Below the pieces are notes generated by a model. The model saw only the letters and a program-made list of their open reading frames with translations, was not told the origin of the DNA and did no database searches. Positions 6,382-29,542 of a stretch of 64,000 bases of DNA are shown here, piece after piece. The translations under genes were made by a program, and so were the position numbers. Each line of letters begins with the position of its first letter. The first letter of the stretch is position 1. Source of the stretch: Desulfarculus sp. (GTDB lineage: Bacteria > Desulfobacterota > Desulfarculia > Desulfarculales > Desulfarculaceae); assembly GCA_003605055.1 (NCBI GenBank), contig QZKP01000075.1, forward strand, positions 26,961-90,960. Reading direction: 5' to 3'.

Positions 6382-6478
6382 TAGGCACATGCCCATGGCC
6401 GGCATGAGTCATGGCTAGGTGGAAGACACCGAGGGTCGCCTGAGTGCCTTGTCGTATCCTGATGGGGCGGAGAGGCCT

Positions 6479-8434
6479 ATGAGCAGCCAAGAGTCAACCG
6501 TCATTCGGGCCAGCGGCCGGCTGCTGAGTTGGGCGGCGGCCCTGGACAAATGGGTGGGCTACCTCAGCCGGAAGTGCACCTCCTTGAGCGCCATTCTGGC
6601 CCTGGTCATGGCCCTGACCATCATCGTTGACTTGGCTCTGCGGAATTTCCTCGGGGTGGTCTTCGACTTCATTATCGAGGGCGAGACCTTTTTATTGATC
6701 ATAGTCACCTTCCTTAGCCTGGCCGAGACCCAGAGAAACGGTCGGCATATTTCAGTCGATATCCTGACCAACAAATTGCCCACCAAGACACGCCTCTTCC
6801 TGGAGATTATATTTTCCCTCTGCGGACTCTATCTTTTTTTGATCATCACCTGGCAGCTATATCGAAGGGGAATGCTGGAGTACGCCGAGGGCAAGATCAC
6901 CATGGTATCCGAGATCCCCTTCGCGCCTTTCACCTTCCTGGCCGCGCTCGGCTGTCTGCTGATGTGCGCAGTGCTTTTTCAGCAACTGCTGGCCAGCCTG
7001 GGCCGGGTGTTGGCCGAGTATAAAAAGCCCCTGCCTTTCTTATTGTTGGCGCTGGCCATCGCGGCCGCATTTATCAGCCTACCCTTTGCGTATCAGGCGG
7101 CGGGAATCGCGCTCAACAAGACCGCCCTGGCCTTGCTGATGCTGGGGCTGGCGCTCGGGTTCATGTTTTTGGGCTTCCCGGTGGCCTTCGCCATGGGCTT
7201 TATCGGCATCCTGGGGACCTGGTGCCTAACGGGCGCGGAGATCACCCTGGGCTCGGTGCGGCTGGCGGCCTATGACAGCGTGGCCGAATATTTCCTCTGC
7301 GTCATCCCTTTCTTCATCCTCATGGGACTGTTTTGTCTGCATTCGGGCATCAGCAAGAACTTGTTCAGGGCCGCCCACACCTGGCTGGCCAGGATGCCCG
7401 GCGGCCTGGCCATAGCCACCATCCTGGGCTGCGGGGGGTTCGCGGCCATCTGCGGCGACAGCATGGCCAACGCCGCCACCATGGGCTCGGTGGCCCTGCC
7501 CGAGATGAAAAAATACAAATACCAGGACTCCCTGGCCACCGGGTCCGTGGCCGCCGGGGGCACCCTGGGCATCCTCATACCGCCCAGCATCGGCTTCATC
7601 GCCTACGGCATCATCACCGAGCAATCGGTGGGCAAGCTTTTCATGGCCGGGATTCTCCCCGGCATGTTGATGATTTTGCTGTTCTCGGCGATCATCTTTA
7701 TCCGCTGCCGATTGAACCCATCCCTGGGGCCCACCACCGCGGGCTCGACCTGGCTGGAAAAGATATCGTCCCTCAGGGGGACCTGGCAGGTCGTGGTGCT
7801 CTTCGTCTTGGTCATGGGCGGAATTTATTCCGGGATAGTGACCCCCACCGAGGCCGGGGGGGTGGGCGTGATCGGCGCCCTGGTCCTGGCGGCCTTTTCT
7901 CCTGAGTTCACCTGGAAGACGCTCTTTGAATCCCTGACCCTGGGGATCCAAATGTCGGCCATGATCATAACCATGCTGATCGGGGTGGCCCTGCTGGGCA
8001 ACTTCATCACCCTTACCGAGCTGCCCCTGAGCCTGTCCACCTGGCTCCAATCCCTGAACCTGTCCCCCTATGTCTTTTTCGTCTGCATTCTTATCCTTTA
8101 TCTCTTCTTGGGCATGGTCATGAACATTATCCCCATGATAATGGTCACCCTGCCCATTGTTTACCCCTCCATCCTGGCCCTGGGCTTTGACCCCATCTGG
8201 TTCGGCGTGGTCATGGTCATCATGATGGAGATGGGACAGGTCTCGCCGCCGGTGGGCATAAACGTGTTTGTCATCCACGCCACGGCGGGCAATGTATCCA
8301 TGATGACGATATTCCGGGGCATAACCCCCTTCGTCGCCATGCAGGTCGTTACAATAATATTGCTTACTCTATTCCCAATTATCGCCCTGTACCTGCCCAA
8401 CCTAATGGCGGTGCTGCCTTCCATCGGCAAGTGA
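6479..8434 (+). CDS. dctQM: Fused TRAP transporter permease (DctQ-DctM)
   Basis: The open frame runs from a GTG at 6419, but the ATG at 6479 follows a GGCGGAGAGG ribosome site, giving 651 residues. About residues 1-200 form the small DctQ subunit with four membrane segments. The rest is the large DctM subunit with about twelve segments; GGFAAICGDSMANAATMGSV and the GGVGVIGALV region are typical DctM sequences. It is a sodium- or proton-driven symporter that receives ligand from the preceding DctP. A DctQ-DctM fusion is a known arrangement in the family. The substrate is unknown. Confidence 0.9.
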   Translation: MSSQESTVIRASGRLLSWAAALDKWVGYLSRKCTSLSAILALVMALTIIVDLALRNFLGVVFDFIIEGETFLLIIVTFLSLAETQRNGRHISVDILTNKLPTKTRLFLEIIFSLCGLYLFLIITWQLYRRGMLEYAEGKITMVSEIPFAPFTFLAALGCLLMCAVLFQQLLASLGRVLAEYKKPLPFLLLALAIAAAFISLPFAYQAAGIALNKTALALLMLGLALGFMFLGFPVAFAMGFIGILGTWCLTGAEITLGSVRLAAYDSVAEYFLCVIPFFILMGLFCLHSGISKNLFRAAHTWLARMPGGLAIATILGCGGFAAICGDSMANAATMGSVALPEMKKYKYQDSLATGSVAAGGTLGILIPPSIGFIAYGIITEQSVGKLFMAGILPGMLMILLFSAIIFIRCRLNPSLGPTTAGSTWLEKISSLRGTWQVVVLFVLVMGGIYSGIVTPTEAGGVGVIGALVLAAFSPEFTWKTLFESLTLGIQMSAMIITMLIGVALLGNFITLTELPLSLSTWLQSLNLSPYVFFVCILILYLFLGMVMNIIPMIMVTLPIVYPSILALGFDPIWFGVVMVIMMEMGQVSPPVGINVFVIHATAGNVSMMTIFRGITPFVAMQVVTIILLTLFPIIALYLPNLMAVLPSIGK

Positions 8435-8520: not shown

Positions 8521-9444
8521 ATGGCTGAGAAAATCGAAAAAGTGGCGGTGGTGGGCATGGGCATTTTGGGTGCCCAGATAGCCGTGCAGGCCGCCTGCTA
8601 CGGCTACCAGGTCTGCGGCTTTGACCAGGTGGAGGGCTCCTTTGCCAAGGCCAGTCAGGGCCTGTTGCAGGCCCTGGCCGCCGGGGGAGGCAAGGGGCCC
8701 GTGATGGGCCTGGCCGCCTGGAAAGAGGGCCTCAAGAAGGTGAAGCTGACCAGTTCCCTGGAGCAGGCCGTGGCTGATGCGGACCTGGTGATCGAGGCCG
8801 TGCCCGAGAATCTGGAGTTGAAGCGCAAGGTCTTCGCCCAGATTGACGCCCTGGCCCCGGCCCCGGCCATCCTGGCCACCAACAGCTCCTCCATCCCCAT
8901 CTCCAAGATAGAAGGCGCCACCCAAAGGCCGCAGCAGTGTCTTAACCTGCACTTCTATTTCCCGATCATGGGCATGAACTTGATAGACGTGATGGGCGGG
9001 AGCCAGACCAGCGAACAGACCATGCAGGCCGGCATCGCCTGGACGCGATCCATTGGCTGCATACCGCTGCTGGTGAAAAAGGAGATCTTCGGGTTCTGCT
9101 TCAACCGCATCTGGCGGGCGGTCAAGCGGGAGGTCCTGCACATGTGGGCCGATGGGTTCGTTGATTTAGAGGACGTGGACCGGGCCTGGATGGTGTTCAC
9201 CGGCATGCCCTACGGCCCCTTCGGCCTGATGGATCAGGTGGGCCTGGACGTGATCTACAACGTGGAGCTGAGCTATTTCGGCGATTCGCAGGACCCCAGG
9301 GACCGGCCGCCGGAGGCCCTCCAGGCCATGGTGGAAAGGGGCCACCTGGGCTTCAAGACCGGCAAGGGGTTTTACGACTACCCCAACCCCGCCTATAAGG
9401 ACCCCGGGTTTTTGCCCCCCGCGGGCCCGGCAGCCTCGGATTAG
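8521..9444 (+). CDS. 3-hydroxyacyl-CoA / 3-hydroxyacid dehydrogenase
   Basis: The 307-residue NAD-dependent dehydrogenase has a Rossmann motif at the N-terminus (VAVVGMGILGAQIA), the VIEAVPENLELK segment, the active-site LNLHFYFP region, and a C-terminal helical domain ending in GHLGFKTGKGFYDYP. Length and layout fit single-domain HADH, L-carnitine dehydrogenase or L-gulonate 3-dehydrogenase relatives. A strong AAAGGAGACGGG site precedes the ATG. Known carnitine and related pathways pair such a dehydrogenase with BKACE, so the likely job is oxidising an imported 3-hydroxy acid to the BKACE substrate. Usual HADH contains a catalytic His near LHFY; HFYFP is present here. Confidence 0.85.
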   Translation: MAEKIEKVAVVGMGILGAQIAVQAACYGYQVCGFDQVEGSFAKASQGLLQALAAGGGKGPVMGLAAWKEGLKKVKLTSSLEQAVADADLVIEAVPENLELKRKVFAQIDALAPAPAILATNSSSIPISKIEGATQRPQQCLNLHFYFPIMGMNLIDVMGGSQTSEQTMQAGIAWTRSIGCIPLLVKKEIFGFCFNRIWRAVKREVLHMWADGFVDLEDVDRAWMVFTGMPYGPFGLMDQVGLDVIYNVELSYFGDSQDPRDRPPEALQAMVERGHLGFKTGKGFYDYPNPAYKDPGFLPPAGPAASD

Positions 9445-9541: not shown

Positions 9542-10990
9542 TCAGTTCAGGGAGTACCGCTCCATCTTGTTGTAGAGGGAGGAGCGGGATATGCCCAGCA
9601 TCTTGGCCGCCCGGCTCTTGTTGCCCCGGCAGAAGCTCAGGGCCCGCTTTATCAGCAGCACCTCGTCGTCGCTGAACTTGCGCTTCATGTCCAATTGCTC
9701 AGCGGCGTCGTCAGTCTGATCGGGATTGTTCAACCGGTTGAGGGAAGCGGCGGTGATGTGCCCGGGCAGCTCGTCGAGGTCTATGACATTGCCGTGCTGG
9801 GCCAGGCAGACCGCGCGATCCAGGGCGTTCTTTAGTTCGCGCACGTTGCCAGGCCAGGAATAGGTCATCAGGGCCCGCAAGGCCCGGTCGGTTATCTCCA
9901 CGGGGCGGGTGGAAATCTGTTTCAGGAAATGCTGGCTCAGGATCAGGATGTCTTCCCTTCTCTCCCGCAGGGGCGGGATGTGCAGGGTCAGGCCGGACAA
10001 ACGGAAGTACAGGTCCTGGCGAAATTTGCCCTCGTCCAGCAGAAAATCCATGTTCCGGTTGGTGGCCGCCACCAGCCGGAAATCCACCTCCTCGGGGATG
10101 ACGGCGCCCACCTTTTCCACCCTTTTTTCCTCCAGGACGCGCAGCAGCTTGGCCTGGGCGATCAGGGGCAGCTCGCCTATTTCGTCCAGGAAAAGGGTGC
10201 CGCCCCGGGCCATCTCGATCTTGCCGGTCTTGCCTTTGTTGTGGGCGCCGGTGAAGGCCCCGGCCGTATAGCCGAATAGCTCCGACTCCAGCAGCTCGCT
10301 GGGAATGGAGGCGCAGTTCAGGCAGACAAAGGGGCCGCGGCGGCCATTGCTGGCGTTATGTATGGAGTGGGCCAGCAGCTCCTTGCCGGTTCCGGTTTCC
10401 CCGGTGATTAAAATGGGGCTTTCGGCCTGGGCGTACCGGCGGGCCATGTCCTTGACGTGATTGAGGCCCTCGCTCACCCCCAGGATGTCCCGGAAGGTGT
10501 ATTTGGGCTTGAGCAGGTCCGACAACTGGGCCTTGTAGGTGTGGACCTTTTCCCTGAGCAGGTCCAGGCTGCGGGCCATGTCCTTGAGCTCGGATATGTC
10601 CCGGAAGATGCACTGGGTCAGGGCCCCGATCATCTTTTCGTCCCGCAAGATGGGGATGCGGTTCACCACCAGGGTTGTGCCGCCCGGGTAATGGTATTTC
10701 CAGCCCATCTCCGCCTTGCCGGTCTGGATGACCACGGGCAGGCGAGAGTCAGGGAAGTACTCGGTTATGTGCTTGCCGTAGGTGGCATCCCTGTCCACCC
10801 CGATCAACTCTTCGTACTGCTTGTTCATGAAGCGGATTATGCCTTCAGTATCCACGAATACCAGGCCCAGGTAGGCCTGATCCAGTATCAACTCCAGCGT
10901 GCTCAGAAAGTCGCGCAGCTCCCGGTAATCAGCCTTTTGATCAGGATTTAAGGACACCGCGCACATGCTCTTTTTACTCGGGGCCGCCAT
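9542..10990 (-). CDS. PAS-containing sigma-54-dependent transcriptional activator
   Basis: The 482-residue enhancer-binding protein has a PAS domain at about residues 25-140 (YLGLVFVDTEGIIRFMN), then an AAA+ domain with Walker A GETGTGKE, the sigma-54-contacting GAFTGA, and Walker [12 protein letters not shown] Fis-type helix-turn-helix closes it (NKSRAAKMLGISRSSLYNK). It should sense a small ligand or redox state through PAS and activate -24/-12 promoters. It is convergent with the TRAP/BKACE cluster and divergent from the aconitase-X operon, whose promoter is a good -24/-12 match. It most likely controls that operon and possibly the cluster on its other side. Confidence 0.93.
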   Translation of the reverse strand: MAAPSKKSMCAVSLNPDQKADYRELRDFLSTLELILDQAYLGLVFVDTEGIIRFMNKQYEELIGVDRDATYGKHITEYFPDSRLPVVIQTGKAEMGWKYHYPGGTTLVVNRIPILRDEKMIGALTQCIFRDISELKDMARSLDLLREKVHTYKAQLSDLLKPKYTFRDILGVSEGLNHVKDMARRYAQAESPILITGETGTGKELLAHSIHNASNGRRGPFVCLNCASIPSELLESELFGYTAGAFTGAHNKGKTGKIEMARGGTLFLDEIGELPLIAQAKLLRVLEEKRVEKVGAVIPEEVDFRLVAATNRNMDFLLDEGKFRQDLYFRLSGLTLHIPPLRERREDILILSQHFLKQISTRPVEITDRALRALMTYSWPGNVRELKNALDRAVCLAQHGNVIDLDELPGHITAASLNRLNNPDQTDDAAEQLDMKRKFSDDEVLLIKRALSFCRGNKSRAAKMLGISRSSLYNKMERYSLN

Positions 10991-11245: not shown

Positions 11246-11261
11246 TGGCCTGGTTTTTGCT
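11246..11261 (+). promoter_or_regulatory. Sigma-54 (-24/-12) promoter of the aconitase-X operon
   Basis: TGGCCT-N5-TTGCT has the invariant GG and GC separated by exactly 10 nt, and only two changes from TGGCAC-N5-TTGCW. Transcription would begin near 11272, giving a leader of about 135 nt before the AcnX small-subunit gene. The divergent gene on the left is a sigma-54 activator, which supports the call. Confidence 0.75.
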
Positions 11262-11406
11262 AAAAATTATGACAGGTTCTTTGGTTATCATCAGGGAGCA
11301 CCGACCTGTATTTCATAGCCAGAAATTACCCCAAACCTTTCCCGGGGCCTGAAGACGGGCCGCGGGCGCGGCCGTTGGTACGTGACCAAATCTTCAGGAG
11401 GTAGCC

Positions 11407-11844
11407 ATGGCGGCAAAGAAAGTTTTGAAAGGCATCACCCGCTCTAAAGGCCACGCGGCGGGAGAAGCCCTGGTCAGCGAACAGCCTCTGAGCTGGGCCC
11501 CTTTCACCATACCCAACGAAACCGGCATCATCAGCATCTTCGGGCACAAGCTCTCCGGCCAGAGCGTCAAGGACAAGATAGTGGTCTATCCCACGGTGAG
11601 CGGCTCCACCACGGGCTCCATCGGGCTTTTCTTCAAGGTCAAGGAATCCAAGGTCGGGCCCAAGGCCATCGTCTGCCGCCAGGTGCACCCCATAGACCTG
11701 GGCGGGGCCATCGCGGCCGAGATTCCGGCCGTGGACGGCCTGGACAAAGACCCCATCCAGGAGATCCAGACCGGAGATTGGGTCGAGATTCAGGCGGCGG
11801 AGGTGGGCCAGGAGGCCGTCGTCACCATCAGCCGCAAGGCATAG
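11407..11844 (+). CDS. Aconitase-X swivel (small) subunit, DUF126
   Basis: The 145-residue protein matches the DUF126 swivel domain of the aconitase-X family, with VLKGITRSKGHAAGEALVSE at the N-terminus and the conserved VVYPTVSGSTTGS segment. In two-subunit AcnX enzymes it packs against the large catalytic subunit encoded next. Characterised members are archaeal phosphomevalonate dehydratase and bacterial cis-3-hydroxyproline dehydratase. This one sits with radical-type acyl-CoA dehydratase genes, so its substrate is probably different. The gene follows a sigma-54 promoter and a CAGGAGG ribosome site. Confidence 0.85.
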   Translation: MAAKKVLKGITRSKGHAAGEALVSEQPLSWAPFTIPNETGIISIFGHKLSGQSVKDKIVVYPTVSGSTTGSIGLFFKVKESKVGPKAIVCRQVHPIDLGGAIAAEIPAVDGLDKDPIQEIQTGDWVEIQAAEVGQEAVVTISRKA

Positions 11845-11892
11845 CCGCGCACCTGTTCAAACCCAGCACCATATCCCGGAGGAGGGGTTCCC

Positions 11893-13218
11893 ATGAAACT
11901 GACCAGGCACGAGCAGGAGATGCTCGCTGGCAAGCAGGGCGAGGCCAAACGCGTCGCCATGGAGAAGCTGGTGGATTTCGGCGTGGCGGTGGGCGCGGAA
12001 GAGATGGCGACCCTGTCCAACGTGCACTACGGCACCTGTTTGATTATGCCGCGCTCCACGCCCGGATACTCCAAGTATGAGTTGGGGCAATCTTCGATAA
12101 TGAGGGAATTCATCGAAATGGGGGCCAAGGTCACCGACGATCCGAACTGCATCTGCTCCACGGACCCCCTGTTCCTGCAACTGGATAAGTACGAAGAGGA
12201 AGGCTATCCCTGGAACCATAAGCACTACAAGATGCCCAGGGTCATCTATGAGGCGGTGGTCAAGGGCTACGAGGAGTGCAAGAAGATGGGCATGGTGCTG
12301 CCCCAGTCCTGCACGCCGCACTTCAACACGGTCATCCCCAAGAAGGACGAATACGTGGTCTCGGTGGAGTCCAGCTACGCGGCCTACATCAACAGCATTC
12401 TGGGCGCTCGCGCCAACCGGGAGAACACCGTGACCCTGATCTACGCCGCGTTCACCGGCGTGCACCCCAAGTACGGCACCATGCTGGACGAGAACCGCCG
12501 CGCCCAGATGGTCTTTGAGCTCACCGACGAGGTCAGGGACAACCTGGTCTATTCGGCCGACTGGGCCGCCCTGGGCGCCGCCGTGGCCATGAAGGCCAAC
12601 AACCGGGTGCCGGCCATCCTCAACCTGCCCAAGCCCATGAGCAACGAGGGCGCCAAGCTTCTCACCGGCTGCGCCTCCCCGGGCATGAACGATCCCATGC
12701 TGCACTTCATCGGCATCAGTCCCGAGTCCCCCACCCTGGCGGCTGCCTTTGGCGGCAAGGTGCCCAAGGACGTGGAGCGCATCACCGTCACCTTGTCCGA
12801 CCTCAAGCAAATCTACCAGGCGCTCTGCTCGGCCAAGAGCGACAAGGTGGATATCGTCCACGTGGGCTGCCCCCACCTGACCTACTACGAGATACGCCAG
12901 ATCGCCAAGCTGATCGAGGGCCGCAAGGTCAGCGACAACGTTTACTTCTGGGTGCAGACCGACACCCCCACCTACTATATGGCCCATCACCACGGCGAGG
13001 CCCAGGTCATCGAGAAGGCCGGCGGCAAGATTTACCACTCCACCTGTTTCGGCCTGCTGCCCATACGCGACTGGGGCAATGACCTGAACATCGCCACCAA
13101 CAGCTTCAAGGGCGTCAAGCTCTTCGGCGGCCAGGGCCAGGGCTGGATGTTCGGGGCCATGCCCGATCTCATTAACGCGGCCGTGACCGGCAAGTTCGCC
13201 TCCACCCGCTGGTCCTAG
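11893..13218 (+). CDS. Aconitase-X catalytic (large) subunit, DUF521
   Basis: The 441-residue large AcnX subunit shows the family-typical LTRHEQEMLAGKQGEAKRVAMEKLV opening (quoted in part: HEQEMLAGKQGEAK), SCTPHFNTVIPKK, a SSYAAYINSILGARANRE stretch, and CASPGMNDPMLHFIG. Cysteines at SCTPH, VGCPH and STCFG are candidates for the iron-sulfur cluster ligands. It should catalyse a dehydration on a hydroxy acid together with the preceding swivel subunit. A GGAGGAGG ribosome site precedes the ATG. The usual TCTPY motif reads SCTPH here, and the substrate is not predictable from sequence. Confidence 0.85.
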   Translation: MKLTRHEQEMLAGKQGEAKRVAMEKLVDFGVAVGAEEMATLSNVHYGTCLIMPRSTPGYSKYELGQSSIMREFIEMGAKVTDDPNCICSTDPLFLQLDKYEEEGYPWNHKHYKMPRVIYEAVVKGYEECKKMGMVLPQSCTPHFNTVIPKKDEYVVSVESSYAAYINSILGARANRENTVTLIYAAFTGVHPKYGTMLDENRRAQMVFELTDEVRDNLVYSADWAALGAAVAMKANNRVPAILNLPKPMSNEGAKLLTGCASPGMNDPMLHFIGISPESPTLAAAFGGKVPKDVERITVTLSDLKQIYQALCSAKSDKVDIVHVGCPHLTYYEIRQIAKLIEGRKVSDNVYFWVQTDTPTYYMAHHHGEAQVIEKAGGKIYHSTCFGLLPIRDWGNDLNIATNSFKGVKLFGGQGQGWMFGAMPDLINAAVTGKFASTRWS

Positions 13219-13331
13219 GCGGCGAGGCGTAATATGGGCGGCCTCCCGGCGTGGTTCCCAGGCCAGGGCGCCCCGGGCCCCGCCGGGCGCGGGGACCGGA
13301 TTCACGGGGGAGTGCAGAGGAGGTTCAACCG

Positions 13332-14462
13332 ATGAAGGCTTTGGATACCTTGATCCAGTACGGCCAGAGCAACCCCAGCGCTGCGGTGCAAGAGTGGAAG
13401 GCCGCGGGCGGCAAGGTGCTGGGCTATTGGTGCTCCTACATCCCCATAGAGTTGATATACGCCGCCGGCGCGCTGCCCTACCGCGTGCGGGGCGCCGGAG
13501 CCACGGGCACGGACCAGGCCGATCACGACATGTCCCCGGTGTGCAACTGCTCCTTCCCCCGCGCCGTCCTGGACCTGGCCCACCGGGGGGTATATGACTT
13601 CCTGGACGGCATCATCGGCATGAACGAGTGCGACCACGGCCGCCGGGCCTTCGAGCTGTGGGTGGAGAGGCTGCACCCCCCGTACCATCACTTCGTTTAC
13701 GTCCCCCGCACCCGCAAACAGGCCTCTATAAGGCAGTATGCGGTGGAGCTGGAGAAGCTCAAGGCCAGCCTGGAGCAGCACCTGGGCACTGAGATCACGC
13801 CCCAGGCCCTGCAAGAGTCGGTGAGCCTGTGCAATGAAAACCGGGCCCTCTTGAAGCAACTGCAAGAGGTGTTTCAGGAGGACCACCCGCCCCTCACGGG
13901 CACCCAGCGCCACCACATAGTCAACGCCTCGGTGAGCATCCCGCCCGAGACCTTGAACAAGCTGCTGCGCGAGCTGCTGGCGGAGGTTAAGCAGATGCCC
14001 CGCCTGGACGGGCAGCGGGTGCGGGTCATGATCGCCGGCTGGGTGGGCGACGACACCCTGGTGCACCGGGCCATAGAGGATTCCGGCGGGCTGGTGGTGG
14101 TTGACAACTGCTGCTTCGGGGCCCGGTCTTATTGGGACCCGATCAACTTCGATCCCCTGGACCCCCTGGGCTCCCTGGCCCTGTCCTACCTGAGCCGGCT
14201 GGGCTGCCCGCGCATGTTCGCCACCTTCGGCGACCGCTTCGCCATGCTGGAGCAGGCGGCCCGGGACTACCGGGTGGACGGGATCGTGCACACCCGCTTG
14301 CAGTTCTGCGACCTGCACGGCCTGGAGAACGTTTTTTTGACCAGGCGCAAACAGCAACTGGAGGTCCCGGTCAGCGCCACCCTGGTGCTGGACTACATCG
14401 GACAGGACGAAGGCCGCGTCCGGACCCGCATGGAGGCATTTATCGAGCAACTGGGCAAGTAG
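13332..14462 (+). CDS. 2-hydroxyacyl-CoA dehydratase / benzoyl-CoA reductase-type subunit (HgdB family) A
   Basis: I place the start at ATG 13332 behind AGAGGAGG, giving 376 residues; the ORF track extends further upstream without a ribosome site. Family features are LGYWCSYIPIELIYAAGALPYRV at the N-terminus (first part: LGYWCSYIPIELIYAAGA), the SPVCNCSFPRAVLDL cysteine segment, and a C-terminal DGIVHTRLQFCDLHG. These proteins bind an iron-sulfur cluster and accept single electrons from an ATP-driven activator to dehydrate or reduce acyl-CoA substrates. It probably pairs with the next gene. Benzoyl-CoA reductase and 2-hydroxyacyl-CoA dehydratase cannot be separated reliably by eye. Confidence 0.85.
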   Translation: MKALDTLIQYGQSNPSAAVQEWKAAGGKVLGYWCSYIPIELIYAAGALPYRVRGAGATGTDQADHDMSPVCNCSFPRAVLDLAHRGVYDFLDGIIGMNECDHGRRAFELWVERLHPPYHHFVYVPRTRKQASIRQYAVELEKLKASLEQHLGTEITPQALQESVSLCNENRALLKQLQEVFQEDHPPLTGTQRHHIVNASVSIPPETLNKLLRELLAEVKQMPRLDGQRVRVMIAGWVGDDTLVHRAIEDSGGLVVVDNCCFGARSYWDPINFDPLDPLGSLALSYLSRLGCPRMFATFGDRFAMLEQAARDYRVDGIVHTRLQFCDLHGLENVFLTRRKQQLEVPVSATLVLDYIGQDEGRVRTRMEAFIEQLGK

Positions 14463-14492
14463 GCGCGTCGCTGCTTACCACAGGAGAGAGTG

Positions 14493-15827
14493 ATGCCTAA
14501 TCTCAAGGGATTTCAGTTCAAGACCTACGATTTTTCCAAGCGTCTGGACACCAAGGTCGATCTCATAGAGGTCATCAATAACACGGTGGCGAAGGCCTTC
14601 AGGAACCAGCCCGAGCCGGTGCGCTGGATTTTCGAACCCCTCCTGCAATACATAGACGAGCTCAACTACTGCCGGGAACACCCGGACAAGGTGGTGTACC
14701 GCCACTTCACCTTCGCGCCGGAAATGGTCTATGCCATGGACTGCGTGTCCTTCGTGCCCGAGGCGCTGACCTTCATCATGCCCACGGAGTATTTGTGCGC
14801 CCTGGTGGACGAGGGGCGGGAGATGGGCATGCCGGATCACTGGTGCGGGTTCCTGGGCGGGGTGCTGGCCCCCATAATGTACGGCCGCCTGCCCCAGCCC
14901 AAGGCCATCCTGCACTGCAACCAGCCCTGCGACAACAGCGTGGCCCAGGGCACGGTCTTGGCCGAAAGCTACCCGGACACGGAGATGTTCATACTGGACA
15001 ACCCCTACACCGACGACGAGGCGGGGGTGCAGTTCTGCGCCGAGCAGCTCCGGGAGGGCTTTAAATACCTGGAGCGCATGACCGGCCAGAAGCTGGACCT
15101 GGACCGGTTCCGGCAGGTGATGAAGAACTCGGCCCGGGCCTACGAGCTGATCTACCAGATCAACGAATACAAGAAGGCGGTTCCCTGCCCCATTCCCACC
15201 AGCGTCATCCTGCGCACCACCAGCGGGGCCTTTTACGGGCTCACGGGCACGGGGGGTCTGGTGCAGTGGCTGGAGAAGCACCTGGCCGACGCCAAGATGC
15301 GCTACGAGAAGGGCATCGGCGGCTTCCGCCAGGAAAAGCTGCGGGTGGTGTGGAACCTGTCCTGGCCGGTTTTCGATTACAGCGTGTACGATTGGATGGA
15401 GGAGGCCTTCGGCGCCATCGCCGTGGCCTACCACTCGGCGGAGCCGTTCTACCAGCCGCCGCCGGATTTAGATTACAGCAAGGCCTCCTTCGAGGTGCTG
15501 CTGCGCGAGCTGGCGCTACGCAACAACAACCACGCCATGGGCCGGCAGGGCCGCGGGCACATGATGACCTTCGTGGACGACTCGCTGAAGTGGTGCCGCG
15601 AGTTCAAGGCCGACGCCGGCATCTTCGCCGGCCACTGGCAGTGCCAGGCCAACTGGGCCGCGGCCCAGCTCACCAAGGAGAAGCTCATGGAGGAGCTGGG
15701 CATCCCCATGCTGGTGATGGTGGTGGACCAGTTGGACCCCCGCGTGGTCTCCGCCGAGCAGATGGCCTCGCGCATGGAGCCTTTCCTGGAGATGGTGACC
15801 GCCAAGAAGGAAGGTAGTGTCCAATAG
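14493..15827 (+). CDS. 2-hydroxyacyl-CoA dehydratase / benzoyl-CoA reductase-type subunit (HgdB family) B
   Basis: ATG 14493 follows AGGAGAG at good spacing; the ORF track's GTG three nt earlier is less likely. The 444-residue protein has ILHCNQPCDNSVAQ with paired cysteines, the FILDNPY segment, and a C-terminal FAGHWQCQANWAAAQ followed by LVMVVDQLDPR, as in the catalytic subunits of this family. It is larger than the preceding subunit and likely forms the heterodimer with it. The activating ATPase is the next gene. The substrate is unknown; the presence of AcnX in the operon suggests a hydroxylated acid. Confidence 0.85.
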   Translation: MPNLKGFQFKTYDFSKRLDTKVDLIEVINNTVAKAFRNQPEPVRWIFEPLLQYIDELNYCREHPDKVVYRHFTFAPEMVYAMDCVSFVPEALTFIMPTEYLCALVDEGREMGMPDHWCGFLGGVLAPIMYGRLPQPKAILHCNQPCDNSVAQGTVLAESYPDTEMFILDNPYTDDEAGVQFCAEQLREGFKYLERMTGQKLDLDRFRQVMKNSARAYELIYQINEYKKAVPCPIPTSVILRTTSGAFYGLTGTGGLVQWLEKHLADAKMRYEKGIGGFRQEKLRVVWNLSWPVFDYSVYDWMEEAFGAIAVAYHSAEPFYQPPPDLDYSKASFEVLLRELALRNNNHAMGRQGRGHMMTFVDDSLKWCREFKADAGIFAGHWQCQANWAAAQLTKEKLMEELGIPMLVMVVDQLDPRVVSAEQMASRMEPFLEMVTAKKEGSVQ

Positions 15828-15912
15828 GGACAGGCCGGTTAGCGCCCTGGAGTATTGCTTAAGGCCGCCAGGCCGCGGGCGGCGTGGTTTGCGGAAAGGA
15901 CGTTGGGCGGGC

Positions 15913-16710
15913 ATGGCCATAGTGGCGGGATGCGACATCGGCTCGGTCTCCGGCAAGGCGGTCCTCTTTGACGGCCAGCGCATACTGGCCAGCGCGGTCA
16001 TACCCTCCCGGCCCCTGCCGGCCGTAACCGCGGAGGAGGTGCTGGGCCTGGCCGCCGGACAGGCCGGCGTGTCCCCCGGAGACATCGCCTACCTGGTGGG
16101 CACGGGCTACGGCCGGGTGAAGGTGCCGGGCGCCCAGAAAACAGTGTCGGAGATCACCTGCCACGCCCGGGGGGCGGCCTTTTACAACCGCGACGCGGCC
16201 ACCCTGATTGACGTGGGCGGGCAGGACTCCAAGGTCATCTCCCTGTCGCCGGAAGGCAGCGGCCAGGTCCTGGAATTCTCCATGAACGACAAGTGCGCGG
16301 CGGGCACCGGGCGCTTCCTGGAGGTGATGGCCAAGGTCTTTGAAATGCCCATCGAGCGCTTCGGGGGCGCGGCTCTGCGGGCCCGGCGCTGCCTGGCCAT
16401 CTCCAGCCAGTGCACCGTTTTCGCCGAAAGCGAAGTGGTCTGCCTCATCGGCCAGGAAAAGGACATGAACGAGATCATCGCCGGCATCTGCGACGCGGTG
16501 GCCGCGCGGGTGGCGACCCTGGTGGGCCGCGTCACCCTGCGGGAAAAGGTCTATATGTCCGGCGGGGTGGCCAAGAACCAGGGGGTGAGGCAGAGGCTGG
16601 AAAGCCGGCTCGGCGTCAAGATATGGGAGTTGGCCGGCGACCCTCTCATCGCCGGCGCCCTGGGGGCCGCCTTGATCGCCATGGACGCCCTCAACAAACA
16701 ACGTCCGTAA
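15913..16710 (+). CDS. BadF/BcrA/HgdC-type ATPase activator of the dehydratase
   Basis: I choose ATG 15913, giving 265 residues and the canonical start MAIVAGCDIGSVSGKAV, over the upstream frame extension. The ASKHA ATPase fold is clear: phosphate loops CDIGSVSGK and DVGGQDSKVI, the cluster-ligand segments NDKCAAGTGRFLEVMA and SSQCTVFAESEV, and SGGVAKNQGV. In characterised homologues the homodimer shares one [4Fe-4S] cluster and uses ATP hydrolysis to shoot a low-potential electron into the dehydratase or reductase. It should serve the two preceding subunits. Confidence 0.93.
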   Translation: MAIVAGCDIGSVSGKAVLFDGQRILASAVIPSRPLPAVTAEEVLGLAAGQAGVSPGDIAYLVGTGYGRVKVPGAQKTVSEITCHARGAAFYNRDAATLIDVGGQDSKVISLSPEGSGQVLEFSMNDKCAAGTGRFLEVMAKVFEMPIERFGGAALRARRCLAISSQCTVFAESEVVCLIGQEKDMNEIIAGICDAVAARVATLVGRVTLREKVYMSGGVAKNQGVRQRLESRLGVKIWELAGDPLIAGALGAALIAMDALNKQRP

Positions 16711-16732
16711 GTCAGGCTGGCTGGAAGATGCA

Positions 16733-17533
16733 ATGACCGTATCAGAGGCGGAAGAAAACTTTTTCCCGGGGTGCAGGTTCCGGCTGGCGGTCACCGGCAA
16801 GGGCGGCGTGGGCAAGACCATCATCGCCGCCCTGATCGGACGCCGCCTCAAGGAACAAGGCAAGAGGGTCCTGCTGGTGGACGGGGACCCGGCCATGGGG
16901 CTGGCCTATGTCTTCGGCGCCGACACCAGCAAGACCATCGGCGGGTTCCGCGACCAGTTGCGCAAGAACCCAAAGTTGAAGCGGGAGGCCGAAACGGCCC
17001 CCATCAAGGAAATGCTGGTGCGGGAGGGCCTGATCCATCTGGATGAACAGACCAGCATGCTCATCATGGGCAAGGACGAGAGCGACGACTGCTTCTGCGG
17101 GGTCAACAGCCTGCTCAAATACGGAATCGGGAGCATCGCCAGGGACTATGAGGCCATGGTCATTGACTGCGAGGCAGGCCTGGAGCAGGTCAGGCGGCGG
17201 GTCCTCAACACGGTCAACGTCCTGCTGGTGGTATCGGATATGAGCGCCCGGGGCACCTGGACCGCCCGCCAGATAGCCGGGGTTCTCGCCCGCCAGGAAG
17301 CAGACGTGGTGTTGCCGGCAAGAGCCGGCTTGGTCATCAACCGGTACCAGGGGAATCAGGCTTTCCTGGGGCGGGCCCAAGAACAGACCGGCCTGGAGCT
17401 TCTGGCCGCGATCCCCGAGGATGGCTGGGTCTCCGAGTTGGACCTGAGCGGCAGAACCATCAACGAGCTGCCCGCCGAGGCCCCCAGCTATGCCAGCGTG
17501 CAGGCTATGCTGGAGCGGCTGCGGCTTTCTTAG
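16733..17533 (+). CDS. cooC: CooC-type ATPase (nickel/iron-sulfur enzyme maturation)
   Basis: The 266-residue MinD/ParA-superfamily ATPase has a deviant Walker A TGKGGVGKT near residues 21-29 and a DGDPAMGLAYVFG segment. A CFC pair near residues 120-122 matches the CxC metal-binding motif at the CooC dimer interface. CooC proteins help insert nickel into carbon monoxide dehydrogenase. No CODH gene is visible here, so this copy may act on the dehydratase, AcnX or the following iron-sulfur protein, or on a CODH elsewhere. It follows the activator gene by 22 nt and is clearly part of this operon. Confidence 0.85.
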   Translation: MTVSEAEENFFPGCRFRLAVTGKGGVGKTIIAALIGRRLKEQGKRVLLVDGDPAMGLAYVFGADTSKTIGGFRDQLRKNPKLKREAETAPIKEMLVREGLIHLDEQTSMLIMGKDESDDCFCGVNSLLKYGIGSIARDYEAMVIDCEAGLEQVRRRVLNTVNVLLVVSDMSARGTWTARQIAGVLARQEADVVLPARAGLVINRYQGNQAFLGRAQEQTGLELLAAIPEDGWVSELDLSGRTINELPAEAPSYASVQAMLERLRLS

Positions 17534-17550
17534 GGTACGGGAGGAACACA

Positions 17551-18627
17551 ATGGACGTTTACCAGCGCCTGGCCCAGAAGCTCGATCAGTTGCCCGAGGG
17601 CTTTCCGGCCACCGGTAGCGGCGTGGAACTCCGTATTCTGCGCCAGATATTCGAGCCCGCGGAAGCGGAGATGGCCTTGCAAATGAGCCCCCTGCCCGAG
17701 ACGGCCGAGGCCATCGCGGAGCGCTTGGGCAGGCCCGTGCCGGAGATGCGGGCCACCCTGGAGGACATGGCCCGCAAGGGGCAGATCGCCAGCTTCAAGA
17801 TGGGCGGGCAGCAGATGTACAGGATGGCTCCCTTCGTGGTGGGCATATATGAATTTCAGCGGCGGGAGCGGCTGACCAAGGAGCTGGCCGAGCTGGTCGA
17901 AGAATACATGCCCTCGCTCAGCCAGAAGGTGGGCGGCTTCGGGCCGCATCTGACCCGGGTGATCCCGGTCAACGCGCCGCTCAAGGCGGACCTGAACATC
18001 CTGCCCCGCGACGACATCCGCCAGATCATCGCCAAGGCCAAGTCCTTCCGGGTGCAGGACTGCGTCTGCCGCCGGGAGCAGGGCCTGCTGGACAACCGCT
18101 GCCAGCACACCCTGCACTGCTGCCTGCAGTATTCCATGGAGGAGGACGCCTACGCCTATTTCAACCTGGACGGCGAGGTGGTCAGCCGGGAGGAGGCCCT
18201 GCGCATCGTGGAGGCGGCCGAGCAGGAGGGCCTGGTGCACTCCACCTACAACGTGGAGGAGGCGCCGGGCGGCTTTCTGTGCAACTGCTGCCCCTGTTGC
18301 TGCGGGCTGCTGCGCAGCCTGAAAGAGTTCGATTCGCCCTACGTGCTGGCCCGAAGCAGCTACCTGGCCAGCATTGATCAAGACACCTGCCAGGCCTGCG
18401 GCCTGTGCAAGGACGAGCGCTGCCCCATGGACGCCATCAGCGAAGAAGACGGCGTCTACCGCGTGCTGGCCGAACGCTGCCTGGGCTGCGGGGTTTGCGC
18501 GGTCACCTGCCCTTCGGATTCAATCACCCTGCTTGCGCGGCCCCAGGCGGACCGCGTCGACATCGCCAAGAATATGATTGACTGGGCCCAGAGGCGCTTA
18601 GCGCAAAGGGAGCAGGGTCAAGGCTGA
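17551..18627 (+). CDS. Cys-rich 4Fe-4S protein with winged-helix-like N-terminus
   Basis: The 358-residue protein begins with a helical, winged-helix-like region (about residues 30-95) and continues into a Cys-rich middle with DCVCRREQGLLDNRC and CNCCPCCCGLLR. It ends in two ferredoxin-type motifs, CQACGLCKDERCP and CLGCGVCAVTCP (about residues 275-330). The CNCCPCCC string is typical of certain ferredoxin-like proteins in anaerobes. It likely supplies low-potential electrons to the ATPase activator of this operon. The gene ends 76 nt before a strong terminator. I do not recognise a named family. Confidence 0.75.
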   Translation: MDVYQRLAQKLDQLPEGFPATGSGVELRILRQIFEPAEAEMALQMSPLPETAEAIAERLGRPVPEMRATLEDMARKGQIASFKMGGQQMYRMAPFVVGIYEFQRRERLTKELAELVEEYMPSLSQKVGGFGPHLTRVIPVNAPLKADLNILPRDDIRQIIAKAKSFRVQDCVCRREQGLLDNRCQHTLHCCLQYSMEEDAYAYFNLDGEVVSREEALRIVEAAEQEGLVHSTYNVEEAPGGFLCNCCPCCCGLLRSLKEFDSPYVLARSSYLASIDQDTCQACGLCKDERCPMDAISEEDGVYRVLAERCLGCGVCAVTCPSDSITLLARPQADRVDIAKNMIDWAQRRLAQREQGQG

Positions 18628-18736: not shown

Positions 18737-18813
<77 letters not shown>

Positions 18814-19914: not shown

Positions 19915-21075
19915 CTAGAGCGCCTCCTCCTCTTGCTTTACGCCGATGGCCACCTTGTAGAGGATGGTCAGGATTAAGAGGCCGGTGGCGTACACGCCGA
20001 AGGTGATCATCAGCTCCAGGCCGGTGGGGGCGTACTCGGTGATCTCGTGCAGGGGGTTGGGCACGAAGCCGCCGGCGATCATGCCCATGCCCTTGTCGAT
20101 CCAGGTGCAGACGAACACCAGCACGCAGGCGACACCCAGCACGGCGGGGTTCTGCCGGGTGCGCGGGTTGACCAGCAGGATGATGGCGACCACGCCGGAG
20201 GCCAGGGCCGTCCAGACCCAGGGCACCAGCATGCTGTAGCCATGGTAGCCGAAGTAGAGGTACTCCAGGTGGGTCATGTGGCTGGGGATGGCGCTGTAGC
20301 CGACCGTGAACACCTCCAGTAGGAAGAAGAAGATGTGCAGGATGATGGCGTAGGTGACGATCTTGGCCAGGGTCTCGAAGGCCTCCTTGCCTGCGTCGAA
20401 GCGGGTGAGCTTCTTGACCAGGTAGCCCAGGAGGATCAGCACCGCCGGGCCCGCGGCGAAGGCCGAGGCCAGAAAGCGCGGGGCCATGATGGCGGTGAGC
20501 CAGTAGCCGCGGCCGGGCAGGCCGGCGTAGAGGAAGGCCGTGACCGTGTGGATGGACACCGCCCAGGGGATGGACAGATAGATGATGGGCTTGATCCACC
20601 CCGGCGGCGCCACCTGCTTGCGCTCGGCCTCCAGGGTCACCCAGCCAGCCACCAGGTTGATGATCAGGTAGCCGTTGAGCACGACCATGTCCCAGAACAG
20701 CACCGAGTTGGGCGTGGGGTGCAGCATCACGTTCAGGATGCGGGTGGGCTTGCCGAGGTCCACGGTGATGAACAGGATGCACATGATCACCGAGGCTATG
20801 GCCAGAAACTCGCCCAGGATGGTGATGCGGCCGAAGGTCTTGTAGTGGTGCAGGTAGTAGGGCAGCACCAGCATCACCGCGGAGGCGGCCACGCCCACCA
20901 GGAAGGTGAACTGGGCGATGTAGAAGCCCCAGGACACGTCCCGGCTCATGCCGGTGATGACCAGACCTTTGTTGTACTGCACCAGGTAGGAGCCGAAACC
21001 GGCGGCGATGACCACCACCAGGGCGATGAGCCAGGCCCAGTACAGCTTGCTTCCGCTTAATGCCTTCTCAAGCAT
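19915..21075 (-). CDS. dsrP: DsrP, NrfD-like quinone-interacting membrane subunit
   Basis: The 386-residue integral membrane protein has about ten hydrophobic segments, starting after LYWAWLIALVVVIAAGFGSY, and belongs to the NrfD/PsrC family. In the DsrMKJOP complex it exchanges electrons with the menaquinone pool and passes them via DsrO to DsrJ. It is the last gene of the operon, 8 nt after dsrO, and is followed by a strong terminator. Length and order agree with sulfate reducers. Confidence 0.93.
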   Translation of the reverse strand: MLEKALSGSKLYWAWLIALVVVIAAGFGSYLVQYNKGLVITGMSRDVSWGFYIAQFTFLVGVAASAVMLVLPYYLHHYKTFGRITILGEFLAIASVIMCILFITVDLGKPTRILNVMLHPTPNSVLFWDMVVLNGYLIINLVAGWVTLEAERKQVAPPGWIKPIIYLSIPWAVSIHTVTAFLYAGLPGRGYWLTAIMAPRFLASAFAAGPAVLILLGYLVKKLTRFDAGKEAFETLAKIVTYAIILHIFFFLLEVFTVGYSAIPSHMTHLEYLYFGYHGYSMLVPWVWTALASGVVAIILLVNPRTRQNPAVLGVACVLVFVCTWIDKGMGMIAGGFVPNPLHEITEYAPTGLELMITFGVYATGLLILTILYKVAIGVKQEEEAL

Positions 21076-21083
21076 GACTACCT

Positions 21084-21854
21084 CTACACCAGGTAATAGA
21101 CCTGGGGATCGGTGCCCAGGTTGGGTTTACGCCGAATGCTGTAGCGCCCCCGCAGCATTTTGCGCAGCTCGCTGCCGGCGTTGTCCACGTCGCCGAAGAC
21201 CATGGCCCCGCCGGAGGCCTCGGCGCAGTAGGGCAGCTCGCCCACCGCCAGGCGCTCGGCGCAGAAGTTGCACTTCTCCACCACGCCGCGGGAGCGGGTG
21301 GGGAAGTTGGGGCTCTCCTTCTTGATGAAGGGCCGCGGGTCCTGGAAGTTGAAGCTGCGCGAGCCGTAGGGGCAGCCGGCCATGCAGAAGCGGCAGCCGA
21401 TGCAGCGGTGGAAGTCCATCATCACCACGCCGTCGGCGCGCTGGAAGGTGGCTTTGGTGGGGCACACCCGCACGCAGGGCGGATTGTTACAGTGGTTGCA
21501 CATGGTGATGTACTGCAGGCTGGCGTACTCGCCGGCCTGGGGGTTGTCCGTCTCCGGGAAGACGTTGGCGTAAGGCGCCAGCCAGATCCACTTGACGTTC
21601 TGCTTGGTGGGGATCAGGGGGACGTTGTGGTAGTAGTGGCAGGCTTCGATGGCCGCCCGGGCCGTGGCCGGGGTGAACTTCTTCATGTCGATGGCCATGC
21701 CCCAGCGCTGCCCCTTGAGGGCGCGGGGGTTGGGCCCCTCCTGGGCGGCGTCCAGGTGGCCCGGCCGCAGGAGCTGGAAGCCCACGCCGCCGCCCACGCC
21801 AAGGGCGACGGAGATTCCGGCGATTTTTAAGAAATCTCTCCTGTCGACGCCCAT
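21084..21854 (-). CDS. dsrO: DsrO, periplasmic iron-sulfur protein
   Basis: The start is ATG 21854 (256 residues), sharing one base with the dsrJ stop (TGATG); the longer frame in the ORF track is spurious. The N-terminus DRRDFLKIAGISVALG is a Tat-type signal. Ferredoxin-like motifs follow: CNHCNNPPCVRVCP, CIGCRFCMAGCPYGS and CNFCAERL, consistent with several [4Fe-4S] clusters. The protein relays electrons between DsrP and the DsrJ cytochrome on the outer face of the membrane. Confidence 0.95.
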   Translation of the reverse strand: MGVDRRDFLKIAGISVALGVGGGVGFQLLRPGHLDAAQEGPNPRALKGQRWGMAIDMKKFTPATARAAIEACHYYHNVPLIPTKQNVKWIWLAPYANVFPETDNPQAGEYASLQYITMCNHCNNPPCVRVCPTKATFQRADGVVMMDFHRCIGCRFCMAGCPYGSRSFNFQDPRPFIKKESPNFPTRSRGVVEKCNFCAERLAVGELPYCAEASGGAMVFGDVDNAGSELRKMLRGRYSIRRKPNLGTDPQVYYLV

Positions 21855-22243
21855 CACTTTTTCTCCTTCGGCACCAGATGGCATTCCCAGCAGAACGGCG
21901 CCACGGCCAGGTAGTTGTGACACTGGTCGCAGAACTTTTCCTTGCTGTCGTGGCAGCTCAGACAGGTGTTGGTCAGGCTCATGTTGAAGTGCTTGCCGTC
22001 GTCGGCGACGTACACGCGCAGGCCGTCGCGCACCACCGCGTCCCGCCAGTCGTTGAGTAGCTTCATGTGGCTGGCGCGCATGTAAGGCGTGGCGGTCACG
22101 CACTGTTTGGCCACGGTCTTGGCCGGCAGCACCAGTTTGGGCGTGGGCGCCGCCTTGCCCAGGCTGCTCCAGAAGGGGAAGGTGAAGATGAGCAGGAAGA
22201 TGACCAGGCCTGTGATGATCTTGCCTCCATCGTAGAGCTTCAT
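21854..22243 (-). CDS. dsrJ: DsrJ, triheme cytochrome c
   Basis: The 129-residue protein has one N-terminal membrane anchor (LVIFLLIFTFPFWSSL) and three heme-binding motifs CLSCH, CDQCH and CWECH in the C-terminal half. This matches the three-heme DsrJ of the DsrMKJOP complex. It overlaps dsrK by one base at TAATG and dsrO by one base at TGATG, so the three subunits are translationally coupled. The hemes face the periplasm. Confidence 0.95.
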   Translation of the reverse strand: MKLYDGGKIITGLVIFLLIFTFPFWSSLGKAAPTPKLVLPAKTVAKQCVTATPYMRASHMKLLNDWRDAVVRDGLRVYVADDGKHFNMSLTNTCLSCHDSKEKFCDQCHNYLAVAPFCWECHLVPKEKK

Positions 22244-23898: not shown

Positions 23899-23899
23899 G

Positions 23900-24967
23900 T
23901 TACTCTTCCTTCTTCCCCTCAGCCGCCGGAGCCGCGGGCTCCTCGGCCGCCGTCTCTCTCTCCACCGGTATGCCGGCCCCGATCATCTTCTCGCGGAAGT
24001 CGTCCTCGTACTCGTGGTAGTCGTGGGTCTTGACCGGGTAGTTCCAGGGGTTGACGTGGCGCACGCTTCGGCTGTTGTTGGCCAGGTTGCGGGTGGGGCT
24101 CAGGAACACCCCGCCCAGGTGCATCAGCTTGCTGAAGGGGAAGTAGGCGAACAGCACGCAGACCAGGAACAGGTGGACATAGAACCACGCGCTCACGCCC
24201 TGGGGCACCACCGGGTGGAAGGTGGCCAGGCCCATGGCCAGCTCCTTGATGGAAACCACGTCCACCCTGACCACGTAGCGCATCAGGATGCCGGTGAGGC
24301 CGATGGCGGTGATCAAAAACAGGGGGAACCAATCCGCGGCCAGGGATATGTAGCGCACCTGGGGGATGACTATGCGCCTGAGCAACAACAGGCTCACCCC
24401 GCCCAGGAGCACCAGGCCGCTGAGCTGCACGGTGGGCAGGCCGATGCCTACGGCGGCCAGGTTGAACTCCAGGAAGCCGTCCACGGCCTCCAGGGCGGCC
24501 AGCAGCTTGGGCACCGGCTCCAGGAAGAAGCGGGCGTGCCGGATCAGCACCACCAGGAAGGCGTAGTGGAACATGATGGCGAACAGCCAGAGGAACTTCT
24601 CGGAGCTGTAGCGGATCTTGGGCCCCTGGCGGTAGTCCAGCTTCATGTTGCGGAACAGGCTGCGGAAGGTGAGGATCTCGAGGGCCATGCGCAAGAGGAC
24701 CGCACCGCCGCTGGCGGGGTTGTCTATCTTGTTGCGCTTGATCCAGGGGAGTGATTTCTCCTGGCCGCAGGTGGTGGGGATGCGGAACGGCACCGGGGAG
24801 CGCGACCAGTCCAGGACCTTATAGACCATGCCCGCGAAGAAGGTGATTAGCGCCGCGTAGGGGACAATCACCCCGAACAAGATTCTCAGGTCCAGCCCCC
24901 AGACACCCACCACAGCTATCCCCACGAGTACCAGCACTGCGACTATGCTCAAAAGGAAACCAATCAT
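23900..24967 (-). CDS. dsrM: DsrM, NarI-like cytochrome b membrane subunit
   Basis: The 355-residue protein has an N-terminal pair of membrane segments followed by a NarI-like heme-b domain with about five more. Histidines in MFHYAFLVVLIRHARFF and FYVHLFLVCVLFAY are likely heme ligands, and YFPFSKLMHLGG is a characteristic segment. It oxidises menaquinol and hands electrons to DsrK. It follows the RsbRD-like gene by 20 nt. Confidence 0.94.
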   Translation of the reverse strand: MIGFLLSIVAVLVLVGIAVVGVWGLDLRILFGVIVPYAALITFFAGMVYKVLDWSRSPVPFRIPTTCGQEKSLPWIKRNKIDNPASGGAVLLRMALEILTFRSLFRNMKLDYRQGPKIRYSSEKFLWLFAIMFHYAFLVVLIRHARFFLEPVPKLLAALEAVDGFLEFNLAAVGIGLPTVQLSGLVLLGGVSLLLLRRIVIPQVRYISLAADWFPLFLITAIGLTGILMRYVVRVDVVSIKELAMGLATFHPVVPQGVSAWFYVHLFLVCVLFAYFPFSKLMHLGGVFLSPTRNLANNSRSVRHVNPWNYPVKTHDYHEYEDDFREKMIGAGIPVERETAAEEPAAPAAEGKKEE

Positions 24968-26509: not shown

Positions 26510-26553
26510 GCCGGGAATCCCGCAGAGTTAAGCCCCCCGCCCTTGAGGTGAAA

Positions 26554-28970: not shown

Positions 28971-28993
28971 GCCCGCAAGCAAAGGAGTCAGCG

Positions 28994-29530: not shown

Positions 29531-29542
29531 CGAGGACAGCCC

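Follow-up and report, generated by a model that had tools for sequence, protein, structure and literature searches.

The window analysed here is a stretch of 64,000 nucleotides from Desulfarculus sp. (contig QZKP01000075.1; G000:C11:26961-90960, in which G000 is the source genome, a draft of 3.6 Mb in 78 contigs). Between positions 11246 and 18627 it encodes the two subunits of an aconitase X (AcnX), two HGD-D proteins (HgdB1 and HgdB2), an activase, a CooC-type ATPase and a Cys-rich Fe-S protein (Fdx). The main novelty is a recurrent and apparently undescribed association between a clade of CooC proteins, to which that of the window belongs, and double-cubane reductases that resemble HGD proteins and benzoyl-CoA reductases (BCR); no link of CooC with benzoyl-CoA reductase or 2-hydroxyacyl-CoA dehydratase was found in the openly licensed literature. 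Two modules, rather than one ancient operon, make up the locus. On balance, we favor a reading in which a first module, for acid catabolism, was joined by a second, a double-cubane reductase with a dedicated CooC chaperone.

The seven-gene interval and its promoter

Families were called with the profile cut-offs of Pfam and NCBIfam, and the window was compared with the congeneric genomes G046 and G047 (the latter 82% complete) and with G269 from another, distant family. A scan of genome contigs returned G046 as the sole close relative. The calls bear out the gene set given in the preliminary description of this DNA (AcnX, an HGD pair, an activase, CooC and a ferredoxin):

11246..11261, + strand: sigma-54 (-24/-12) promoter element TGGCCTGGTTTTTGCT, kept upstream of acnXs in G046 and G047
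9542..10990, - strand: sigma-54 activator (enhancer-binding protein), divergent from acnXs, from an open reading frame (ORF) call
11407..11844, + strand: AcnX small (swivel) subunit (AcnXs), 145 aa; PF01989, 74.5 bits, cut-off 27
11893..13218, + strand: AcnX large subunit (AcnXl), 441 aa; PF04412, 322 bits, cut-off 31.5
13332..14462, + strand: HgdB1, BzdN/DCCP-like subunit; PF06050, six [8Fe-9S] ligand Cys
14490..15827, + strand: HgdB2, catalytic-subunit homologue (BzdO/HadB fold); PF06050, three [4Fe-4S] ligands
15913..16710, + strand: BadF/BcrA-type activase ATPase (Act), single copy; PF01869 (BcrAD/BadFG), 175 bits
16733..17533, + strand: CooC-type ATPase of the HGD-linked clade; KGGVGKT, CFC
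17551..18627, + strand: Cys-rich Fe-S protein (Fdx); adjoins AcnX in G047 and G269

The seven genes share the + strand, span 11407 to 18627 and are separated by gaps of 17-114 bp, consistent with a single transcript. The starts of HgdB1 (13332) and of the activase (15913) were corrected by comparison with G046. Nonsynonymous divergence (dN) is well below synonymous divergence (dS) in every case in which dS could be estimated, and the genes are therefore constrained.

The element at 11246 is of the -24/-12 type (TGGCCT-N5-TTGCT). The window contains 34 matches to the sigma-54 consensus versus 38.5 expected, such that a lone match is at chance level. The promoter is credible because the same element is found upstream of acnXs in G046 (TGGCATGTAATTTGCT) and in G047 (AGGCATGATATTTGCT), beside an orthologue of the sigma-54 activator, which adjoins acnX in both genomes. 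A single sigma-54 promoter probably drives both modules. The one uniting operon proposed earlier is upheld only in part: the genes form two modules, and G047 lacks the second.

A CooC clade that accompanies probable double-cubane reductases

The CooC of the window has the motifs expected of its family, a deviant Walker A (KGGVGKT at 23) and, at residue 120, CFC, so that the CxC motif is intact, as first noted. Relatives were sought across 375 genomes of the phylum, blind to HGD, and the regions that flank all 45 matches (E<=1e-36) were examined. HGD and/or activase genes occur within 8 kb of 24 of these 45 relatives, genes for carbon monoxide dehydrogenase (CODH) beside 5, and neither beside 16. 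A chance link to HGD is expected for about 4% of CooCs at 10 HGD loci per genome, which gives P ~1e-21, a value that is only indicative given that the rows are related. In a maximum-likelihood tree, one branch (99/97) sets off all 26 HGD-linked CooCs with 6 unlinked ones, which together cover nine families, and all 9 CODH-linked CooCs fall in a separate clade (97/96). The CxC motif is kept in all relatives.

The window CooC is placed in the HGD-linked clade. The CODH genes of the source genome are on another contig (C15), and the genome has a second CooC (C43) within the CODH clade, the congener orthologues of which are found some 2 kb away from CODH. The tree placement and the presence of this separate CODH-clade CooC therefore identify the window CooC as HGD-type. 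It neither groups with CODH-linked proteins nor lies near CODH, as a CODH maturase would, and service to CODH was rejected as its role. CODH genes, which the preliminary description suggested be looked for elsewhere, are present, yet they are not what this CooC serves.

By analogy, CooC most likely acts as a chaperone that uses ATP to supply metal or a cluster to a CoA-ester reductase, itself ATP-driven. This is suggested because CooC acts in CODH maturation (PMC9164220) and because its constant partners here are an activase and Fe-S subunits. Double-cubane reductases may have their own dedicated CooC-like helper.

Two modules and their history

Module 1 consists of AcnXs, AcnXl and Fdx with the sigma-54 regulator, a beta-keto acid cleavage enzyme (BKACE), a hydroxyacid dehydrogenase, biotin carboxylase and TRAP transporter genes. 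Module 2 consists of HgdB1, HgdB2, one activase and CooC. Module 1 is present without module 2 in G047, where Fdx directly follows AcnXl, with no HgdB1, HgdB2, activase or CooC gene intervening, and where the best HgdB2 match genome-wide is a distant paralogue (E 1e-17). G269 encodes a fused AcnX and, after it, an Fdx that shares 63% identity with the window protein, with a related sigma-54 regulator beside them. Gene order thus indicates that Fdx pairs with AcnX rather than with HGD.

The order AcnXs-AcnXl-HgdB1-HgdB2-Act-CooC is common to G000 and G046 at 65-83% identity. In G046, a broken remnant of AcnXl lies ahead of Fdx, made up of two short pieces with one in-frame stop (L018:3649-3816), which are 84.8/93.5% identical in nucleotides to AcnXl of G047 versus 74.1/82.6% to the intact AcnXl of G046. 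The remnant is best read as a fossil that dates from the earlier AcnX-Fdx arrangement. The simplest history suggested by these sequences would start from an ancestral unit of regulator and AcnX-Fdx that later gained the HGD-activase-CooC block, and the incoming block probably carried its own AcnX.

No HGD genes were present in the regions examined at 17 AcnX loci outside the window-type cluster, among them AcnX paralogues at other sites in G046, G047 and G049, and no AcnX-HGD linkage was found across the phylum sample. HGD and CooC occur without AcnX in many families. The union of AcnX with module 2 is local and probably recent. The idea that AcnX is joined to HGD and CooC in a conserved pathway is therefore not upheld, given AcnX-Fdx alone in G047 and G269 and HGD with CooC alone elsewhere. 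AMP-dependent CoA ligases adjoin the HGD module in three other genomes; at L215:12904-16445, an AMP-dependent ligase and an aldehyde ferredoxin oxidoreductase precede an HGD-Act-Act-CooC module.

The HGD pair and its activase

The [8Fe-9S] double cubane of BzdN is bound by Cys36/73/100/263/293/327 and the [4Fe-4S] cluster of BzdO by Cys95/128/380 (PMC11971306). HgdB1 and HgdB2 match PF06050 with 268 and 163 bits. HgdB1 has Cys in all six columns equivalent to those of BzdN (C34, C73, C100, C261, C292 and C326), whereas HadC has none at HgdB1 positions 34 and 261. The [4Fe-4S] ligands of HgdB2 (C119, C147 and C385) are invariant in 16 sequences, and its predicted model (pLDDT 86) resembles BzdO, MbdO and HadB. 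The activase scores 222 bits with TIGR00241 (cut-off 125).

By curated cut-offs the pair falls outside both the Bzd and the Had families. The HadB and HadC models give 49 and 131 bits (cut-offs 750 and 700), and the Bzd equivalogs likewise fall short (BzdN 129 vs 454; BzdO 31.5 vs 449; BzdQ 193 vs 380). Assignment to DCCP, which has a double cubane in each half, fails as well, with 202 bits for NF040772 vs 350 and an HgdB2 that keeps the three catalytic Cys only. HgdB1 has the six [8Fe-9S] Cys seen in the N/C subunit of class I benzoyl-CoA reductases, but the two different ATPases of those enzymes (BzdP + BzdQ / BcrA + BcrD) are replaced by a single one, as in dehydratases, whose lone activase is homodimeric; the loss of double-cubane Cys that marks HadC-type subunits of 2-hydroxyacyl-CoA dehydratases is not seen. 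These residues favor a double-cubane reductase sooner than a dehydratase, and the label of radical dehydratase first given to the pair probably placed it in the wrong half of the superfamily.

A further set of HGD genes, kept in several congeners, is found in the window:

26548-30322: second HGD set, with HgdB1', HgdB2', a 178-aa protein and an activase

HgdB1' lacks two double-cubane Cys, with P and L at 34 and 261, and the best model for HgdB2' is HadB (286 bits, cut-off 750). By these residues the second set appears dehydratase-like, unlike that at 13332-15827.

AcnX and Fdx

Membership of AcnX in its family is clear, as both domains exceed their Pfam cut-offs and the large subunit has the three Fe-S ligands (C140, C326 and C385) and the catalytic E159, S160 and K406, all of which are also kept in G046, G047, G269 and G328. 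The residue roles, including that of TkAcnX Asn79 as a phosphate contact, are taken from PMC8184944. Asn79 is replaced by Asp (D91 in the window AcnX), as it is in G046, G047 and G328, and the ambiguously aligned region of TkAcnX residues 47-53 yields Lys or Glu at 53, which is Asn53 in TkAcnX. The phosphate-binding residues of mevalonate-5-phosphate dehydratase (AcnX IIb), namely Asn79, Asn53 and Gly48-Val49-Ser50, are thus not those of the window protein, and this function was rejected since the known substrate determinants are not kept. Hydroxyproline dehydratase was likewise rejected (NCBIfam model, 148.8 bits vs a cut-off of 700). Subclasses IIc-IIf have no assigned function (PMC8184944), and the window AcnX would fit among such orphan subclasses.

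A plasmid search with AcnXl gave a single distant match. After the congeners, the next-nearest AcnX is that of G328 (52% identity; L125:6062-10390), which adjoins a glycyl radical enzyme of the isethionate sulfite-lyase/HpsG-like group, a radical-SAM activase and a permease.

Fdx has an N-terminal winged-helix-like domain, two extra four-Cys sets and a C-terminal 2x[4Fe-4S] part. A fold search gave matches limited to the ferredoxin and winged-helix parts (best E 4e-3). Fdx has several paralogues per genome (among loci L061-L087), with the winged-helix-like N-terminus and at least 16 conserved Cys; the family numbers 5 in G000 and 32 in G041.

Upstream and downstream genes

The catabolic setting is wider than the preliminary description had it, with eight further genes upstream:

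19-549, + strand: biotin carboxyl carrier (BCCP); Pfam/NCBIfam
546-1901, + strand: biotin carboxylase (BC); Pfam/NCBIfam
1911-3356, + strand: PycB/OadA-like carboxyltransferase (CT); Pfam/NCBIfam
3394-4254, + strand: BKACE1, beta-keto acid cleavage enzyme; PF05853
4297-5178, + strand: BKACE2, beta-keto acid cleavage enzyme; PF05853
5241-6320, + strand: DctP, TRAP transporter; NCBIfam, kept in G047
6419-8434, + strand: fused DctQM, TRAP transporter; NCBIfam, kept in G047
8521..9444, + strand: 3-hydroxyacid / 3-hydroxyacyl-CoA dehydrogenase family (HAD); PF02737 and PF00725

G047 encodes the entire series that runs from BCCP through AcnX to Fdx, in the same order (BCCP-BC-CT included) at 49-81% identity and with BKACEs 77-80% identical to those of the window. 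The two BKACEs score 328 and 294 bits with PF05853, and the dehydrogenase at 8521-9444 falls under all equivalog cut-offs. An AMP-dependent ligase, TctA and TctC are encoded upstream, past the window edge.

BKACE1 has Arg at the position of Glu14 of Kce, as assigned by alignment. The Arg suggests an anionic substrate, and no particular substrate is claimed. Carboxylation of a methyl ketone to a beta-keto acid by the biotin carboxylase, for example of levulinate to 3-oxoadipate, is offered as an idea only. Short PycB-like carboxyltransferase genes with BC and BCCP recur beside TRAP permease genes in other families (L159, L160, L161 and L162), in some cases with CoA-transferase-, thiolase- or acyl-CoA-dehydrogenase-like ORFs (assigned by eye); the set is a widespread biotin carboxylase with an orphan substrate.

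Directly downstream of the AcnX/HGD cluster, beyond a tRNA-Arg (18737-18813), the window also encodes DsrMKP, from which the organism is taken to be a sulfate reducer:

19915-24967, - strand: DsrMKJOP-type sulfate-respiration genes; DsrM, DsrK and DsrP over cut-off

Proposed function and alternatives

The proposed mechanism starts from gene content, module boundaries, cluster ligands, promoter and CooC clade, as read from the sequence, and extends by inference to the reactions, the role of CooC and the action of module 2 on a product of module 1. The two characterized AcnX enzymes both dehydrate a free beta-hydroxy acid. Because of this chemistry, and because the neighbors are a hydroxyacid dehydrogenase and BKACEs, module 1 would in effect be a beta-oxidation with CoA-free early steps: a carboxylic acid taken up via the TRAP transporter would be broken down as AcnX adds water to or removes it from the free beta-hydroxy acid, the dehydrogenase turns the hydroxy acid into a beta-keto acid, and BKACE cleaves the latter with acetyl-CoA to an acyl-CoA and acetoacetate. 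In module 2, the double cubane ([8Fe-9S]) of HgdB1 would be charged with electrons by the activase at the expense of ATP. HgdB2 would then receive them at its [4Fe-4S] active site and transfer them to a CoA ester, and CooC would serve the HgdB reductase as an ATP-dependent metal or cluster chaperone.

Several points weigh against this scheme. In E. coli, a plasmid named for bzdNO only, with no maturase named, gave BzdNO that carries its double cubane (PMC11971306). A double-cubane enzyme can therefore do without CooC in some cases, though CODHs likewise vary in whether they need it (PMC13056359). The six-Cys set is found in 30 of 32 CooC-linked and 15 of 19 unlinked HgdB1-type proteins (p = 0.18), and a tight coupling of CooC to this signature was dropped as not significant; the set does not discriminate because it is near-universal in HgdB1-type proteins. 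Two features leave dehydratase activity possible, namely the replacement of the active-site His131 of BzdO by Ser150 in HgdB2 and the presence of one activase instead of two. No CoA-activating enzyme is encoded within 11246-18627, the nearest ligase being upstream of the window. The combination of AcnX and module 2 occurs in just two genomes, both of one genus, and the G046 block is a compositional mosaic, with a GC content at third codon positions (GC3) of 0.42-0.78. Finally, the client of CooC in a sister subclade could be a CdhC/ACS-like protein. In one of the two HGD-linked subclades, such a protein of ~250 aa adjoins CooC. One of 245 aa, encoded between activase and CooC at L229:6229-6966, scores 43.6 bits with PF03598 (cut-off 24), and relatives lie beside CooC at L218, L220, L221, L227, L228, L234, L235 and L239, and further at L241, L243, L244, L246, L247 and L249. 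The small protein distantly resembles the full-length proteins of 730-760 aa at CODH loci. None is found near CooC in the subclade of the window (L212-L216, L219, L226, G046 and the window itself).

A more specific form of the two-module reading, which we entertain tentatively, is that this CooC branch is dedicated to double-cubane BCR/HGD reductases and loads or repairs the [8Fe-9S] cluster or that of the active site, jointly with the small ACS/CdhC-like protein in some lineages, which hints at nickel, and that such an enzyme was recruited into the AcnX pathway in the window. It seems unlikely that all seven genes form a single pathway, in which the hydrated or dehydrated acid made by AcnX, once converted to its CoA ester, would be the substrate of HgdB1/HgdB2 as a 2-hydroxyacyl-CoA dehydratase and CooC would load metal: the gene order common to G000 and G046, the lone activase and an HgdB2 that lacks the His131 of BzdO, like HadB (PMC11971306), would fit, but so complete a set of double-cubane Cys is not found in HadC, the pair scores far under the HadB/HadC cut-offs, and neither the AcnX pathway of G047 nor the 17 loci outside the cluster include HGD. 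Decidedly unlikely is a Ni enzyme formed by CooC and the HGD set, with a CdhC/ACS-like ancestral client that for the window is lost or elsewhere; the PF03598 match and its relatives at many HGD/activase loci suggest it, those that could be placed all belonging to the other HGD-linked subclade, but the subclade of the window has no such protein near CooC.

That CooC matures a Ni enzyme elsewhere (CODH or ACS) and is in the operon by chance draws on the CODH genes of C15 and on CODH as the known client of CooC (PMC9164220), but is very improbable and largely refuted by the C43 protein of the CODH clade, by the place of the window CooC in the HGD-linked clade and by an HGD link that recurs in nine families. 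Equally hard to credit is a role of CooC in loading the Fe-S cluster of AcnX, as its accessory ATPase or as a partner in electron transfer; AcnX does have such a cluster, with three Cys ligands, in the same operon, but CooC is absent near AcnX in G047 and at every AcnX locus outside the cluster, and CooC relatives track HGD.

We know of no account of the route by which cells build the [8Fe-9S] double cubane. The CooC clade found with these reductases is a candidate dedicated maturation factor for it, and caution is warranted in that not every CooC should be annotated as a CODH maturase. The promoter-defined pathway allows an orphan AcnX subclass to be tied to BKACE and a hydroxyacid dehydrogenase.

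Comparison with known systems

The window AcnX shares with the Type II enzymes (TkAcnX, 7cnr; ApPMDh) the heterodimer, Fe-S ligands and catalytic Glu/Ser/Lys, and differs by the Asp in place of the phosphate-contacting Asn79 and by extra insertions. With hydroxyproline dehydratase it shares the AcnX fold and catalytic core, but it has two subunits and the low score given above. Module 2 resembles BzdNOPQ and MbdONQP (8s02, 9g87, 9gai) in its two HGD-D subunits, BcrA/D-type ATPase, six-Cys set in HgdB1 and three-Cys set and fold in HgdB2, and departs from them in having one ATPase, no His131, a CooC partner and sub-cut-off scores. DCCP and DCCP-R (6eno, 7yyl) are the top-scoring family of HgdB1 and share its six Cys, but the window enzyme is a heterodimer whose second subunit keeps three ligands, and the cut-off is missed. 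HadBC with HadI (3o3m) likewise has two subunits, a single activase and the fold of HgdB2, whereas HadC misses two of the six Cys that HgdB1 retains. The CODH maturation ATPase CooC (3kje) has the same deviant Walker A, CxC motif and MinD fold as the window CooC, which belongs to a separate clade and has HGD/BCR genes as its neighbors.

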